DNA from: Agrococcus jejuensis
GTDB lineage: Bacteria; Actinomycetota; Actinomycetes; Actinomycetales; Microbacteriaceae
Length of the DNA: 64,000 nucleotides
Direction of reading: 5' to 3'
NCBI RefSeq assembly: GCF_007679035.1
Contig: NZ_VEFR01000001.1
Location: forward strand, 1,073,925-1,137,924
Positions 16,064 through 33,069 of this stretch are shown here, piece after piece (the first letter of the stretch is position 1; the number at the start of each line of letters is the position of its first letter). The position numbers were made by a program, and so were the translations under genes. Under the pieces are notes generated by a model, which was not told the DNA's origin, did no database searches, and saw only the letters and a list, made by a program, of their open reading frames with translations.

Positions 16064-16081
16064 AACTCCGAGCCGAGACGC

Positions 16082-16119
16082 AGAGAGGGCCTCGTCGCTG
16101 CTGCGACGAGGCCCTCTCT
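16082..16119. terminator. Strong hairpin downstream of the tRNA-like remnant (copy 1)
   Basis: Perfect 17-bp arms AGAGAGGGCCTCGTCGC around TGCT, immediately after the 3' end of the degenerate tRNA on the minus strand. An identical hairpin is at 16194-16231. It probably terminated tRNA transcription. Confidence 0.8.
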
Positions 16120-16122
16120 CGG

Positions 16123-16198
16123 TGGTACACCCCCCGGGACTCGAACCCGGAACCAATGGATGAAGAGTCGACCGCTCTACCGGGCCGAGATGGAGAGA
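16123..16198 (-). pseudogene. Degenerate tRNA-Lys-like gene
   Basis: Over 76 bases the T arm, acceptor 3' strand and CCA are identical to the intact tRNA-Lys at 32920-32995. The anticodon loop reads CTCTTCA (anticodon CTT). The 5' half is broken: the acceptor has T-T mismatches at positions 1 and 3, the D stem pairs only three bases, and the anticodon stem has a C-C mismatch. Its 5' end runs into the next hairpin. It is most likely a decayed second tRNA-Lys or the trace of an older integration event. Confidence 0.7.
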
Positions 16199-16231
16199 GG
16201 GCCTCGTCGCTGCTGCGACGAGGCCCTCTCT
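16194..16231. terminator. Original host terminator of tRNA-Lys, now separated from its gene
   Basis: Identical 17-bp-arm hairpin to 16082-16119. It sits directly downstream (minus strand) of the tRNA 3' fragment in attL. Before phage integration it would have ended the tRNA-Lys transcript. Confidence 0.75.
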
Positions 16232-16271
16232 CGGTGGTACACCCCCCGGGACTCGAACCCGGAACCAATTG
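16231..16271 (-). other. attL: attL: 41-bp core matching the tRNA-Lys 3' half
   Basis: Identical over 41 bases to 32916-32956. It contains tRNA positions 40-76, from the 3' side of the anticodon stem through CCA, plus four flanking bases. Sequence diverges immediately on both sides, as expected for phage attachment site copies produced by a tyrosine integrase. Confidence 0.95.
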
Positions 16272-16368
16272 GCATGCGGGACGATTTGCGCAGGTGACGT
16301 CGATCGACGACGCTCGTAGCGTGCGTGAACCTGTCCTCACGCTCGGCGACAAGGGGGAAGCCGCTTGA
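16272..16368 (+). other. Displaced 3' coding tail of the viral-form repressor
   Basis: When attL and attR are joined as attP, the repressor frame beginning at 32652 continues here as TGG instead of the prophage TGA. It adds 32 codons (starting WHAGRFAQ, ending GDKGEAA) before TGA at 16366-16368. In the prophage this piece has no start of its own. Its stop overlaps the TTG of the next small gene (TTGA). Confidence 0.85.
16294..16322 (+). promoter_or_regulatory. Putative promoter for the 51-aa gene and integrase
   Basis: -35 GTGACG (16294-16299), a 17-base spacer and -10 TAGCGT (16317-16322), about 40 bases before the TTG start at 16365. In attP it lies inside the repressor's 3' coding tail. 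It would let int be expressed in the prophage independently of the repressor promoter. Confidence 0.55.
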
Positions 16369-16520
16369 ACGATGAGGAGCGCGCAGCGTTCACCGAATGG
16401 CTGCGCGAAGTCATGCGCGAGGCAACCAATCACGAGGTGTGGTGGATCGACTCGACCGCCAACTCGGTCGCAGACGCTCTGCTCGCCCGGTACGAGATTC
16501 GGCAGCGCAGCGCAACGTGA
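16365..16520 (+). CDS. Small 51-aa phage protein between repressor tail and integrase
   Basis: TTG start with the purine-rich AAGGGGGAAG six bases upstream, and an acidic N-terminus (NDEERAAFTEWLREVMREA) likely to be helical. Its TTG overlaps the viral repressor stop (TTGA) and its TGA overlaps the integrase GTG (GTGA). In the circular phage it would therefore be the middle gene of a coupled repressor-small gene-integrase operon. No family recognised; possible roles are an integrase partner or an antirepressor, both speculative. Confidence 0.6.
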   Translation: MNDEERAAFTEWLREVMREATNHEVWWIDSTANSVADALLARYEIRQRSAT

Positions 16521-17371
16521 CGTACAGGCGAGCGCGCCCAGAATGGGCCATGACTGAGAACGCCTCTACCGATCACTGGACCGATCCGCTGCGCCGCTTC
16601 GACCGCTACCTCTCGTCTGCCGGCATCGCCCGATCCACCAGGCAGCTGCGTCACCACCAGCTGCGCCGCGCCGCACGCTGGCTCGCGTGCGCGCCGCACG
16701 AGGTGACCTACGAGCGCCTCGAGCGCTACGTCGGGCACGCGGCCTGGAAGCCGTCGACGCGACGCAACGCTCGAGCGGCGCTGCGGGTGTTCTTCGCCTG
16801 GGCGCTCGTGCGCGGGCTCGTCGAGTCCGACCCGGCCGCGGCTCTGCCGAGCGTCCGCGTCCCCACGGGCACGCCGCGGCCGGCGCCCGACCACTCCCTC
16901 AAGTCGGGGCTGCGGTGGGCTGACAGCCGCGTCGAGCTCATGATCCGCCTCGCGGCGCACGCGGGCCTGCGCTGCGTCGAGATCGCCGCCGTGCGGCCGC
17001 GAGACGTCGAGACCGACATGGTGGGCTCGAGCCTGCGCGTCGTCGGCAAGGGCTCGCGCGTGCGCCTCGTGCCACTGCCCGACGACCTCGCCGCGATCGT
17101 GCGGAACCACGACGGCGAGTGGCTGTTCCCCGGCCAGATCGACGGGCACCTCTCCGCGGCGTACGTCTCCAAGCTCGTTTCGCAGGCGCTCCCCGAGGGC
17201 GTGACGGCGCATATGCTGCGCCACCGGTACGCGACGCGCGCATACGCGGCTGAACGCGACCTACTAGCGGTCCAACGGCTGCTCGGGCACGCCTCCGTCG
17301 CCACCACGCAGGTCTACACCCGCGTCCCCGATGGGGCCCTGCGCAGCGCCGCCCTCGCGGCTGCTGCGTGA
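16517..17371 (+). CDS. int: Tyrosine recombinase (phage integrase)
   Basis: Site-specific recombinase of 284 aa with an N-terminal SAM-like core-binding domain (about residues 20-105) and a C-terminal catalytic domain. The catalytic set is complete: R in HAGLRCVEIAAV, K in VVGKGSRVRLVPL, HxxR in HMLRHRYATR, H in LLGHASV and the nucleophile in TQVYTRV. The GTG at 16517 overlaps the preceding stop; ATG at 16550 is an alternative. The protein ends SAALAAAA, which resembles an ssrA-type degradation tag. It presumably recombines attP with tRNA-Lys. Confidence 0.95.
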   Translation: MTYRRARPEWAMTENASTDHWTDPLRRFDRYLSSAGIARSTRQLRHHQLRRAARWLACAPHEVTYERLERYVGHAAWKPSTRRNARAALRVFFAWALVRGLVESDPAAALPSVRVPTGTPRPAPDHSLKSGLRWADSRVELMIRLAAHAGLRCVEIAAVRPRDVETDMVGSSLRVVGKGSRVRLVPLPDDLAAIVRNHDGEWLFPGQIDGHLSAAYVSKLVSQALPEGVTAHMLRHRYATRAYAAERDLLAVQRLLGHASVATTQVYTRVPDGALRSAALAAAA

Positions 17372-18082: not shown

Positions 18083-18760
18083 TCAGCGGCGCATGTCGTC
18101 GAAGAGGCGGTACGCCTTCAGCTTCCGCATGCTGCGGATGCCGGGGCGGTAGCCGTGGCACGTCTCGAACGCGTCGAGGAGCGCCTCACGGTCGGCTACG
18201 GAGCCGATCCTCTTCTGGCCTCGGTCGGTGGCGGTGTACTCGGCGAAGTGCTCGGGATCGCCCGGCTCCTCAATGCGGATGAAGAGCATGTCAGGTGCCT
18301 CTCGTCGGATGGGTCGCGGGTAGTCGGCGGGCGCGGATGCGATCGCCTTGGAAGCCTGTGCGTCGAGGAACGGTTTGGGGTCTACGCGGCGGTCCTGGAC
18401 CCACAGCTCGACGTGGACGTGCACGCCGGTCGAGAGGCCCGTCGATCCCATGACGCCGAGCACGTCGCCCTCGGCGACGGTCTTGCCGAGCGTGGGAGCG
18501 TACGAGGCCAGATGCCAGAGGTCGATGCGCAGCGACGCCTTGTCGCCGACGAACACGCCGAGCGCGCCGTACTGGTCGCGCACGCGGACGACAGGCCCGC
18601 CGATCACGGCCTGGAGGAGTACGCCCTGCTTGCCGCGCTGCTCCGGGCCGTAGTCGACGCCCCAGTGGAACGAGGGCGTGCTGCCGGCGTTCGTCTTGAT
18701 CGGGTCGCGGTCGCCGAACGCGCTCGTGTAGACGAGTCGCTCGGGGCTGAGGCGGGCCAT
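18083..18760 (-). CDS. Endolysin, M23 metallopeptidase
   Basis: 225-residue lysis enzyme. The M23 zinc peptidase domain is at about residues 25-160, with the HxxxD ligand pair at H32/D36 (HWGVDYG) and the HxH motif in GVHVHVELW. It would cut peptidoglycan cross-links. The C-terminal 60 residues form a separate basic region (RKLKAYRLFDDMRR), perhaps a wall-binding module. The ATG overlaps the preceding stop by one base (TGATG). Confidence 0.9.
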   Translation of the reverse strand: MARLSPERLVYTSAFGDRDPIKTNAGSTPSFHWGVDYGPEQRGKQGVLLQAVIGGPVVRVRDQYGALGVFVGDKASLRIDLWHLASYAPTLGKTVAEGDVLGVMGSTGLSTGVHVHVELWVQDRRVDPKPFLDAQASKAIASAPADYPRPIRREAPDMLFIRIEEPGDPEHFAEYTATDRGQKRIGSVADREALLDAFETCHGYRPGIRSMRKLKAYRLFDDMRR

Positions 18761-18891
18761 CACTCCACCGGCTCGGGGGTGAGTGTGATGATGTGGAAGT
18801 AGCCGGGTGCGTCGCCGCCGAAGTGGACGAGCTCGTAGCCCGCCTCCCACTCCTGCTCCTCGCCGCACACGGCGCACGTCATGGTGACCAT
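18760..18891 (-). CDS. Small phage protein with a CxxC motif
   Basis: 43 aa starting MVTMTCAVCGEEQEWEAGYE; a single CxxC pair near the N-terminus suggests a half zinc-knuckle. Both ends overlap neighbouring genes by one base (TGATG), consistent with coupled translation. Function unknown. Confidence 0.6.
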   Translation of the reverse strand: MVTMTCAVCGEEQEWEAGYELVHFGGDAPGYFHIITLTPEPVE

Positions 18892-19487
18892 CAGACTCCC
18901 TCCCAGCGGGTGATGATGAGTTCGGCGGACGCGTTGCTCGAGCCGCCCGTCTGCTTCTCGACGCGGAACCAGATGCGCGTGGCGGCTGCGAACTTGATGC
19001 GCTGCACGACCATCGGGAAAGTGAACGAACCCACGCCACCCCACGACGAGTCGCGCAGCATCGACCCGCCGCTGGCCGCGTCGCCGGAGGAGAGGCCGGT
19101 CCAGATGCTCATGGTCGAGCGGCCGGTGGTGTTGCTCGTGAGCGTGCCCCACAGGTCGAACGAGTACGTGCCCGCTGGGAGCAGGAAGCCGCCGTTGAGC
19201 GTGCCGCTCGAGGTGTAGGTGTACGGGAACGGGTTGGGCGATGCTGCTGCGGTGTCCTCGGACGTGAGCGCCAGGAAGTAGCGGTTTGGGCTGTCGGCGA
19301 TCGAGGATCGAGTCAGCGCGAACTTCCGCATGCTCTGACGGGCGTTCAGGTCCAGCGCGCTCATCTGCGACCGCACGCTCGCAATCGCGGTCGACGTCGC
19401 CGACTGTCCGAGGTTGAGCGTGTCGACCATCGGGAAGTCGGGCTCGCTGCCGTCGTACTGGTAGATGCCGTTCGCGTCGATTGCCAT
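18891..19487 (-). CDS. Minor tail / receptor-binding protein candidate
   Basis: 198 aa, rich in Ser, Thr, Gly and aromatic residues (TYTSSGTLNGGFLLPAGTYS, FDLWGTLTSNTTGRS), as in beta-structured tail-tip proteins. It is the most promoter-distal structural gene before the lysis genes, where host-recognition proteins usually lie. It starts 3 bases after the preceding stop. Assignment is by composition and position. Confidence 0.6.
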   Translation of the reverse strand: MAIDANGIYQYDGSEPDFPMVDTLNLGQSATSTAIASVRSQMSALDLNARQSMRKFALTRSSIADSPNRYFLALTSEDTAAASPNPFPYTYTSSGTLNGGFLLPAGTYSFDLWGTLTSNTTGRSTMSIWTGLSSGDAASGGSMLRDSSWGGVGSFTFPMVVQRIKFAAATRIWFRVEKQTGGSSNASAELIITRWEGV

Positions 19488-31408: not shown

Positions 31409-31731
31409 GCGTTGCTCCTGTCGTGGTCCTGGCCTGCTCGGGTGAGCACGCTGGGTCGGTTGCTGTGGTCTGCGAGTCGCTCAAGGACTGCGAGCGCTTC
31501 CCCGACGCAGTGGCGGCACTCGAGCGCGGGAATGGTGCTCTCGAGCGCCTTGGCACGCGTCTCGTCTGCGAGGTGATCCCACGCGGGCGTCGTGGCGAGG
31601 TGGGTCGCCACGACACCGCGTGCTCGGTAGGGACTGCGAGGAGTGACCACGGCCGCGATGCGGTCGTGGGAGTAGAGCTGCGCGTCGCGAGCGTCCGCGA
31701 GCGTGGCCGCGAGTACAACGATGCGGCTCAT
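31405..31731 (-). CDS. Phage protein, unknown
   Basis: 108 aa starting MSRIVVLAATLADARD. A Rossmann-like first strand is followed by a helical region with one CxxC (ALECRHCVGEALAVL). ATGA overlaps with both neighbours. Not recognised. Confidence 0.55.
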   Translation of the reverse strand: MSRIVVLAATLADARDAQLYSHDRIAAVVTPRSPYRARGVVATHLATTPAWDHLADETRAKALESTIPALECRHCVGEALAVLERLADHSNRPSVLTRAGQDHDRSNA

Positions 31732-32369
31732 GCTGCGCTCTTCTCGATGGGCTGCTCTCGGCAGTCGGGGCAGCAGCCCATGGGCTCGCTGTAGCGGTGG
31801 GGCTGGCCGCTCGGGTAGCGCACCGAGCAGGTGGGCGTGTGGAAGATCGCCCAGCAGGTCGTGCCGTCGCCCCGACGCGCGCGCACACGGTTCCCAACGT
31901 GAGATGCAGGAGGTGTGTGGGTAGAAGGTTGAGAGGACGGTTCGGGGGTCGATTCCGAGGGGGGGTCCCCCATCAGATCCGAGGCCCCCCTCAATTCCGA
32001 CCCCCCCTCAAGATTGAGGAGGGGTGCAGGCCCTCGCAGAGCGGCCTTGCGGCGCGTGCGGTGGGCCGTGGTGCCGTCGCAGTCGGCGGGGCAGCGCAGG
32101 AGGATGTCGTAGCGGTTGGGGCGCTCGTGGTCGGCCATGGAGCGGGTGCCGCCACCCTGGATCTGGCGCCGAATCTCGCCCATGCTCTCGAGCTTCGCGA
32201 TGTGCTTGCGGGCGCTGTCGCGCGTGACGTTTGCGTAGTCGGCGAGGGTCGCGATCGCGGGCCAGGAGCCGCCGTCGCCGTGGTGGTTCGCAATGCCCAT
32301 GAGCACGACCTTCGTCGTGCCGGTGGCGCGCGAGTGGTGGAGCGCGAGCACCATGGCCTCGACGCTCAT
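31728..32369 (-). CDS. Helix-turn-helix DNA-binding protein (replication/early regulator)
   Basis: 213 aa. The N-terminal winged helix (about residues 20-70: SWPAIATLADYANVTRDSAR, HIAKLESMGEIRRQ) resembles replication-initiator and GntR-like HTH domains of phages. A Ser/Pro-rich linker follows, then a C-terminal cysteine cluster (CPDCREQP). It is the second leftward early gene and probably acts in replication. Confidence 0.7.
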   Translation of the reverse strand: MSVEAMVLALHHSRATGTTKVVLMGIANHHGDGGSWPAIATLADYANVTRDSARKHIAKLESMGEIRRQIQGGGTRSMADHERPNRYDILLRCPADCDGTTAHRTRRKAALRGPAPLLNLEGGSELRGASDLMGDPPSESTPEPSSQPSTHTPPASHVGNRVRARRGDGTTCWAIFHTPTCSVRYPSGQPHRYSEPMGCCPDCREQPIEKSAA

Positions 32370-32560
32370 CGCGGCTCCGGGGTGAGCAGGGCGTCGACGT
32401 CGGCCGCGAGGAATCGCCGGTGCCCGCTGGGCAGGTACTGCGCGCTCAGCACGTCGTCGGCGACGTAGCGGTCGAGCGTGCGCTGGCTGATCCTCAGGCG
32501 CTGCCGGACGTCTGCCGCGGTGAGGTAGTGCACCTCGTCCTGCGTAGTGTCTGACTGCAT
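32366..32560 (-). CDS. Excisionase/Cro-like helix-turn-helix protein
   Basis: 64 aa with a MerR/BldC-type winged helix (YLTAADVRQRLRISQRTLDR, then LPSGHRRFLAADVDALL). It is the first leftward gene, divergent from the repressor, which is where Cro or Xis proteins lie. The ATG is seven bases after TACGGT (minus strand), suggesting leaderless translation of the lytic transcript. Confidence 0.8.
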   Translation of the reverse strand: MQSDTTQDEVHYLTAADVRQRLRISQRTLDRYVADDVLSAQYLPSGHRRFLAADVDALLTPEPR

Positions 32561-32651
32561 ACGGCAGACCGTAGCATGCCGTGGCGCACTACTGAGGATT
32601 CACAGCGCGCGTCTAGGGACGAATGACATGGAATGGCATACGATGCATCCC
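32561..32651. promoter_or_regulatory. Divergent lytic/lysogenic control region
   Basis: 91 bases between the excisionase/Cro-like gene and the repressor. The minus-strand -10 is TACGGT (32568-32573) and the plus-strand -10 is TACGAT (32639-32644), each about seven bases from its start codon. An inverted repeat ACGGCA-N10-TGCCGT (32561-32582) brackets the leftward -10 and is the best operator candidate. Confidence 0.6.
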
Positions 32652-32957
32652 ATGACCAACGTGTTCCCCCTGGCACCTCCAGAGCCAGCGCACTTCGATG
32701 CCGTGATCGGCCGGCGCGTTCGCGACCTCATCCGAGGGCGCGCCACTCAGGCAGAACTGGGCGCGGTGCTCGGGCTCGGGCAGAGCGACGTGAGCAAGCG
32801 CCTGCGCGGCGCGATCGCATGGAAGGCCGAGGAGCTGCGGCGCATCGCTGACGCCCTGGGCGTCTCGATCGCCGTCGTATACGGCGAAGAGCCGCCGCCT
32901 GCTGGCGACGGCTCTTCGGTGGTACACCCCCCGGGACTCGAACCCGGAACCAATTGA
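32652..32957 (+). CDS. Phage repressor, truncated prophage form ending inside attR
   Basis: 101 aa with a Cro/C1-type helix-turn-helix at about residues 31-52 (ATQAELGAVLGLGQSDVSKR). Residues 89-101 (SVVHPPGLEPGTN) are encoded by the att core, antisense to the tRNA-Lys gene, and the TGA stop is formed at the core's edge by host sequence. In attP that codon becomes TGG and the protein gains 32 residues. The ATG is seven bases after TACGAT, so the mRNA is probably leaderless. It probably represses the leftward promoter and maintains lysogeny. Confidence 0.88.
   Translation: MTNVFPLAPPEPAHFDAVIGRRVRDLIRGRATQAELGAVLGLGQSDVSKRLRGAIAWKAEELRRIADALGVSIAVVYGEEPPPAGDGSSVVHPPGLEPGTN
32886..32917. terminator. 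Phage hairpin replacing the tRNA-Lys terminator
   Basis: 14-bp arms with one mismatch (32886-32899 and 32904-32917) around TGCT, directly downstream of the tRNA 3' end on the minus strand. It lies within repressor codons 79-89, so one DNA segment is both coding (plus) and a likely tRNA terminator (minus). Confidence 0.65.
32916..32956 (-). other. attR: attR: 41-bp core within tRNA-Lys
   Basis: Identical to attL at 16231-16271. Because the phage carries the tRNA 3' half, integration restored a full tRNA gene here. The right edge lies next to the anticodon stem. Confidence 0.95.
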
Positions 32958-32995
32958 TTAAGAGTCAACTGCTCTGCCAATTGAGCTAGAGGTGC
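32920..32995 (-). tRNA. tRNA-Lys(CTT)
   Basis: 76-base cloverleaf with encoded CCA: acceptor GCACCTC/GGGGTGT, D stem GCTC/GAGC, anticodon stem GTTGA/TCAAT with loop CTCTTAA (anticodon CTT) and T stem CCGGG/CCCGG with TTCGAGT. The 3' half comes from the phage. It is transcribed toward the prophage. Confidence 0.95.
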
Positions 32996-33069
32996 TCGGC
33001 GCATCACTGCGAACCGAGGAACCACACTAGCACGACGCGGAGGGCGTGTCGGACCACGATGATGGACGC

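Follow-up and report, generated by a model that had tools for sequence, protein, structure and literature searches.

A 16.7-kb prophage at a tRNA-Lys gene of Agrococcus jejuensis: a probable case of integration-dependent immunity

Known switches with the attachment site in the repressor gene

Among the sources cited for integration-dependent immunity of the BPs/Angel type is Broussard 2013. For BPs and its relatives, the accessible parts of the literature describe the mechanism itself, the C-terminal tags, the cores lying in tRNA genes and the integrases that do not need arm-type sites (PMC4557955, PMC9262239, PMC9934374), and they report that the base adjoining the core makes the stop codon (PMC4557955, PMC9262239). 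A terminal AA is what is called the tag in the available text of one of these papers (PMC9934374). The Gordonia phages of cluster CW, namely GMA5, GRU3, Jeanie and McGonagall, are described in the part of the source at hand as having genomes of 17.1–17.7 kb, integration-dependent immunity and a 37-bp tRNA-Lys attP (PMC5559632). Two Bifidobacterium prophages of about 18 kb, Bb423phi2 and 689b-1, yield a longer repressor with an ssrA-like tag upon in-silico joining, again according to the accessible text (PMC6109161). Finally, an Arthrobacter case is on record in which, as far as the available part of the paper goes, attP does not lie in the repressor (PMC5513430).

The prophage considered here lies within the window, which is the whole stretch of 64,000 nucleotides of Agrococcus jejuensis DNA that was analysed. 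Its likeness to the gp33-gp32 pair of BPs and Angel, as presented in the accessible text of Villanueva 2015 (PMC4557955), extends to an attP in the 3' end of the repressor gene, a tRNA target and a host base that makes the stop; the repressor is shortened from 136 to 103 aa in BPs and from 133 to 101 aa here. Both kinds of long repressor carry an ssrA-like tag, and the repressors fall into one PHROG, phrog_2328, to which Angel gp33 belongs at 3.1e-41. Angel nevertheless differs in that its repressor is only distantly alike, its genome measures 41 kb, its long repressor ends in KAS and its integrase in AGF, and no strong antisense hairpin adjoins the tRNA. As for cluster CW, GMA5 shares an extra small frame between the integrase and repressor genes, according to the portion of the paper available (PMC5559632), whereas the cluster infects another host and is likened here by description only. 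Features are also shared with the Gordonia phages SallySpecial, Rahul and Coeur (15.9–16.2 kb), in which the repressor gene is followed by the integrase gene, a tRNA-like core lies inside the repressor, the long form ends in AA and an antisense hairpin adjoins the tRNA. Integrase identity amounts to 41% with Angel (cluster G) and to 48–51% with these three phages, and SallySpecial and Coeur further share 34–35% identity in the portal protein and 28% each in capsid and terminase; they too differ in host, and most other genes are undetectable at E 1e-2. The Bifidobacterium prophages diverge in having a tRNA-Met target, a 39-bp core and an 18-residue tail, as stated in the accessible text (PMC6109161).

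No report of integration-dependent immunity in Microbacteriaceae was found in the literature searched, which covered few subscription papers, and the accessible portions of a survey of Curtobacterium prophages (PMC9862828) and of a Microbacterium prophage paper (PMC9030533) mention neither attP nor ssrA. The initial annotation had suggested that a phage of about 17 kb from this family would extend the mechanism, and with regard to the family this stands within the literature just delimited, whereas phages of that size had already been published (PMC5559632 and PMC6109161, both available in part). What is new here is the presence of the arrangement in 19/31 related integrase loci of the host family and of uncut long repressors in 18/29 viral contigs.

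The prophage, its core and the reading frames of the repressor

The prophage measures 16.7 kb (16,685 bp from core to core) and is bounded by two exact copies of a 41-bp core, the longest repeat common to both of its ends (Table 1). By judgement rather than by a P value, an exact repeat of this length inside a tRNA gene with an integrase gene adjoining it is not a product of chance. The core corresponds to the 3' part of a tRNA-Lys gene, since a complete tRNA-Lys (CTT) is predicted on the minus strand at the attR end, whose 3' end the core overlaps and restores. A query made of this tRNA and the right flank found a match in 24/24 genomes of the genus group, and six of the 24 matched loci were set against the predicted attB. 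The two closest of the six, G007 and G013, which match the right flank at 96% and 91%, carry no prophage, and in both of them the left and right flanks of the prophage are contiguous through tRNA-Lys, which represents the uninterrupted site.

A partial second copy of the core, 39 bp long (16119-16157), is found 112 bp to the left of the attL core. The surrounding stretch (16074-16271) is a tandem duplication with a 112-bp step, in which a hairpin and a partial tRNA-Lys occur twice, the left copy being a degenerate tRNA-Lys. As G013 likewise has a second, partial tRNA-Lys copy, the duplication probably predates the prophage.

Table 1. Features of the prophage ends and of the control region, in coordinates of the window
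Feature	Position	Strand	Basis
Hairpin of the host (18 bp) that follows the displaced 3' fragment of the tRNA; probably the terminator that originally served tRNA-Lys	16193..16232	-	fold
attL copy of the 41-bp core	16231..16271		exact repeat
3' portion of the long repressor frame, separated by integration (32 codons including the junction codon, GEAA end, TGA 16366-16368)	16272..16368	+	joined frame
Possible 51-aa small gene; its TTG start shares bases with the TGA that ends the long repressor (TTGA)	16365..16520	+	ORF
Tyrosine integrase, 273 aa from the likely start	16550..17371	+	homology; Pfam
Replication-initiation (lambda O-like) gene	31728..32369	-	phrog_8540 3.4e-32
Divergent HTH_17 gene, excisionase/regulator-like	32366..32560	-	Pfam, PHROG
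Control region separating the two divergent HTH genes; presumed position of PR, Prep and operators	32561..32651		gene layout
Immunity repressor, prophage (short) form, 101 aa + TGA	32652..32957	+	ORF; BetR, HTH_3, phrog_2328
Stem of 15 bp closed by a 4-nt loop, immediately 3' of the tRNA and within repressor codons 78-89; likely replacement tRNA terminator	32885..32918	-	fold
attR copy of the 41-bp core; repressor codons 89-101 (+), tRNA-Lys 3' part (-)	32916..32956		exact repeat
tRNA-Lys (CTT), complete, 3' end phage-supplied; its antisense gives the stop of the short repressor	32920..32995	-	tRNA prediction

In the prophage, the repressor frame opens with the ATG at 32652 and closes with a TGA at 32955-32957, and both its length and its stop were placed correctly in the initial annotation, as was the start of the core within it, which is exact to the base: 32916 is base 1 of codon 89. 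An HTH domain occupies approximately residues 17–77 (Pfam BetR 1.5e-7, HTH_3 1.2e-5), and the top PHROG of the protein is phrog_2328 (1.7e-9). The short form takes its stop codon from the strand antisense to tRNA-Lys, with TG contributed by the core and A by the host at the junction. When 32956 is joined in silico to 16272, this TGA becomes TGG and the frame grows from 101 to 133 aa, which reproduces the codon change and the 32 additional residues expected beforehand; the C-terminus then reads ...WHAGRFAQVTSIDDARSVREPVLTLGDKGEAA, followed by the TGA at 16366-16368 (GDKGEAA end). GC content by codon position is 0.75/0.53/0.66 in the detached tail and 0.78/0.52/0.81 in the repressor gene before the core. 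Close relatives of this very repressor were absent from the viral contigs, and the best matches within the family reach 37–40%.

In the form of the phage, the repressor and integrase genes adjoin on one strand, divergent from the Cro/excisionase-like gene. The integrase probably starts at the ATG at 16550 and not at 16397, from where a longer ORF would encode 324 aa: the first 51 residues of this longer frame (16397-16549) precede the stretch that aligns to most relatives. Pfam finds only the SAM-like and catalytic domains in the integrase and no N-terminal arm-binding domain, and the protein ends in ALAAAA. The possible 51-aa gene that precedes it has no relatives in the phage collection, the fetched loci or the remaining genomes when 299 of the family were searched; if it is a gene, the TTGA overlap would couple its translation to that of the long repressor in the phage circle. 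Between the divergent genes no sigma-70-like promoter was found, and a scan for promoters and terminators over 32300-33050 returned nothing. The repeated 7-mer GCATACG, found on both flanks of the control region (32557, 32636), was considered as an operator and rejected, as it also occurs inside the integrase gene (17240) and about three copies are expected by chance, according to an estimate. The gene-by-gene check comprised the integrase, the repressor, the HTH_17 and O-like proteins, portal, capsid, terminase, major tail protein and an M23-type peptidase, while several other prophage frames have no family match. The peptidase gene (18083-19039; endolysin/metallo-endopeptidase by PHROG) lies near the integrase end of the prophage.

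Recurrence of the arrangement and the ends of the long repressors

When 398 genomes of the host family were searched with the integrase, 37 matches were obtained at E <= 1e-30, including the prophage's own. The locus set comprised 31 integrase loci from 30 genomes, own included, with G085 counted twice for its two integrases; G294 and G351 were left out for the proximity of a contig end, and 10 loci were taken in from weaker integrase matches. A tRNA repeat of at least 35 bp is present in 22/31 loci (16/21 plus 6/10), whereas in the other 9/31 none was found within the searched stretch. An HTH frame on the integrase strand runs into the core in 19 of these 22 (15/16 plus 4/6) and is absent in G014 and G031. 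In G056 (L315, L316), an 82-bp repeat at tRNA-Arg covers part of the repressor, an ambiguous case in which joining leaves a shorter HTH frame than that of the prophage, the opposite of the usual order. The targets of the 19 loci are tRNA-Arg (10), tRNA-Lys (7), tRNA-Met (1) and tRNA-Asn (1), and the prophages measure 14.8–17.7 kb in 16/19 and 36–42 kb in the other three. As in the present prophage, the stop is split two-plus-one between core and host in 12/15 loci; the split is one-plus-two in G246, and the stop is wholly of host origin in G293 and G376.

Viral contigs were used for a comparison with phages in their uncut form, which the initial annotation had proposed by suggesting a search of related phage genomes for the long repressor. 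From 80 integrase loci kept, 29 were usable, with at least 700 bp upstream of the integrase, and 51 were not. An uncut long repressor running through the tRNA motif is present in 18 of the 29 usable contigs, and no such frame was found in the remaining 11; L251 was set aside, as were alternative frames of L256, and L240 was counted although ARAGORN proposes a tRNA there. Thus, the long form does exist uncut in related phages, but a close relative of this particular repressor is not among them. The repressor frames were picked by eye and the 37 kept ones (19 prophage, 18 viral) were then checked with Pfam and PHROGs: HTH_3 is found in 35/37 and phrog_2328 matches 37/37, with part of the latter match covering the tRNA-derived tail. 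A scan of genome contigs with the integrase alignment gave one close match among the matches listed (Tessaracoccus, L143, 46%).

Joining lengthens the repressor in all 19 prophage loci (19/19), by 12–61 aa. The length of the extension alone is no evidence of a switch, given how rarely stops occur in this DNA (0.0236 per codon), and a narrow range of extensions (12–38 aa in 15 loci) was dropped as a sign of selection once four more loci gave 24–61 aa. Long forms terminate in Ala in 12 loci, in Ser in 4 and in Cys, Asp and Arg in one each, against background frequencies of 0.11 for Ala and 0.22 for Ala or Ser at the position preceding any stop, as determined in 15 of the prophages. The corresponding binomial P values (7e-8 for Ala; 1e-8 for Ala or Ser, 16/19) serve as guides only, since the loci are related. 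As a control, the two alternative frames were read at each junction of these 15 prophages; they end in Ala in 5/30 and in Ser in 5/30 cases. In the viral contigs, the long form ends in Ala in 14, in Ser in 1 and in Asp in 3 of 18 cases, the latter being near relatives. These three contigs (L228-L230) have the ends CAD, LTD and LAD, which perhaps represent another type of tag or a worn switch.

It is the lengthening in every locus, together with the prevalence of terminal Ala or Ser, that argues for a switch. The prophage is, with a probability of roughly 0.88 judging from its sequence, a BPs/Brujita-type switch for integration-dependent immunity, and is probably a real member of this known type in working order. 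The BPs/Brujita logic put forward in the initial annotation held for each sequence-level defining feature that was tried, namely gene order, core, stop, tags, integrase and homology. In the phage circle, the repressor and integrase genes would stand in one row on one strand and probably be transcribed together, with the repressor read through attP; its 32-residue tail, ending in GEAA, should mark the long form for proteolysis, so that immunity would be off. Integration would cut the repressor gene at the tRNA core, and the host base would turn TGG into TGA, leaving a 101-residue form expected to be stable and to keep the divergent early genes repressed. The integrase, with its ALAAAA end, is probably short-lived too, in which case its survival would decide lysogeny, and the same cut would separate the integrase gene from the repressor promoter.

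Two other readings have to be weighed against this one. The overlap could be incidental, with a repressor that happens to read into a tRNA fragment, a tail without a role and two forms that behave alike; the extension lengths are indeed of about the size expected for GC-rich DNA, and the tails diverge quickly, amino-acid-changing codons exceeding silent ones in 5 of six other pairs and equalling them in 1, which is not informative on selection. Such an accident is very unlikely in view of the uniform lengthening and the Ala or Ser ends, the viral contigs that keep the long frame whole and an integrase related to those of known systems. Somewhat more plausible, yet still unlikely, is a worn switch that retains the integration-dependent layout while GEAA, insufficient as a signal to the host protease, leaves the long form able to repress as well. 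Third from the end stands Glu here, where classic tags have Leu, and for this reason the GEAA tail may be a weak tag; the long form of G246 ends in GDAA, which is likewise acidic, and the host tmRNA tag is ANAKRTDFALAA, ending in ALAA. Against such wear, an AA end is the tag of the literature (PMC9934374, in its accessible text), and the tail is whole and in frame. Among integrases an AA end is not the rule: it is present in 7/15 of those beside such repressors, and neither the other 8 nor that of Angel have one.

An antisense hairpin within the repressor frame

The stem that lies just 3' of the tRNA within the repressor gene folds at -30.4 kcal/mol, and 20/1000 synonymous recodings reach its score. 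Likely, this hairpin is a replacement terminator for tRNA-Lys, and a phage-borne replacement makes sense because integration moves the host hairpin to the far end of the prophage. As neither of the two hairpins has a U-tract, termination at them is put forward here as a probable function. The phage-borne hairpin would thus take the place of the displaced tRNA-Lys terminator and shield the repressor from tRNA transcription.

The comparison was extended to a set of 39 genes (19 prophages, 16 viral contigs, SallySpecial, Rahul, Coeur and Angel), from which L229 and L230 had been dropped as near copies of L228. A strong stem adjoins the tRNA in 27/39 genes, compared with 1/39 and 0/39 in two control stretches of the same genes, by a cut-off that was chosen after first looks at the data. 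Angel (P 0.22), G293, G376, G246, G148, G380 and six viral contigs are without a strong stem. Against synonymous recodings, 25/39 genes score better at P<0.05. An alternative is that the hairpin reflects a structure of the repressor mRNA, or is a by-product of GC-rich Pro/Gly/Ala codons, and has nothing to do with the end of the tRNA transcript. The remaining 14/39 genes, at P >= 0.05, and the cut-off set after seeing the data would suit that explanation, as would the hairpin of the prophage itself, which has neither a U-tract nor a T asymmetry (2/8 on either side) in a region where the terminator scan was empty. It is nonetheless rather doubtful given the position of the stems next to the tRNA, and the T-richness on the tRNA-transcript side among the 27 genes with a stem (P 2.7e-5) argues against it as well.

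For most phages of this type we regard it as fairly probable that the linker and tail of the repressor overwrite, on the opposite strand, the 3' half of a tRNA and a phage-borne tRNA terminator, such that one stretch would serve as protein switch, as the end of the tRNA transcript and as insulation of the repressor from head-on transcription. The antisense hairpin may be a general observation that is new to the literature: a tRNA-terminator hairpin within an integration-dependent immunity repressor was not found in the literature searched, part of which was available in excerpt, and the word 'terminator' is absent from the accessible text of PMC4557955, PMC9934374, PMC9262239, PMC5559632 and PMC6109161. 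In the available portion of PMC9476930, 'terminator' refers to a tail terminator protein, and a partial tRNA is mentioned that is possibly completed on integration. If the proposal is true, the recurrent Pro/Gly-rich linker of these repressors would be the shadow of a terminator, and the hairpin offers a testable reason for a linker that they have in common.

If the preferred reading of the prophage as an integration-dependent switch is right, a well-studied and oddly built lysogeny switch would be placed in a further bacterial family, in which small prophages at tRNA-Lys and tRNA-Arg carry it repeatedly, and the many natural tails of its long repressors could reveal what host proteases read.
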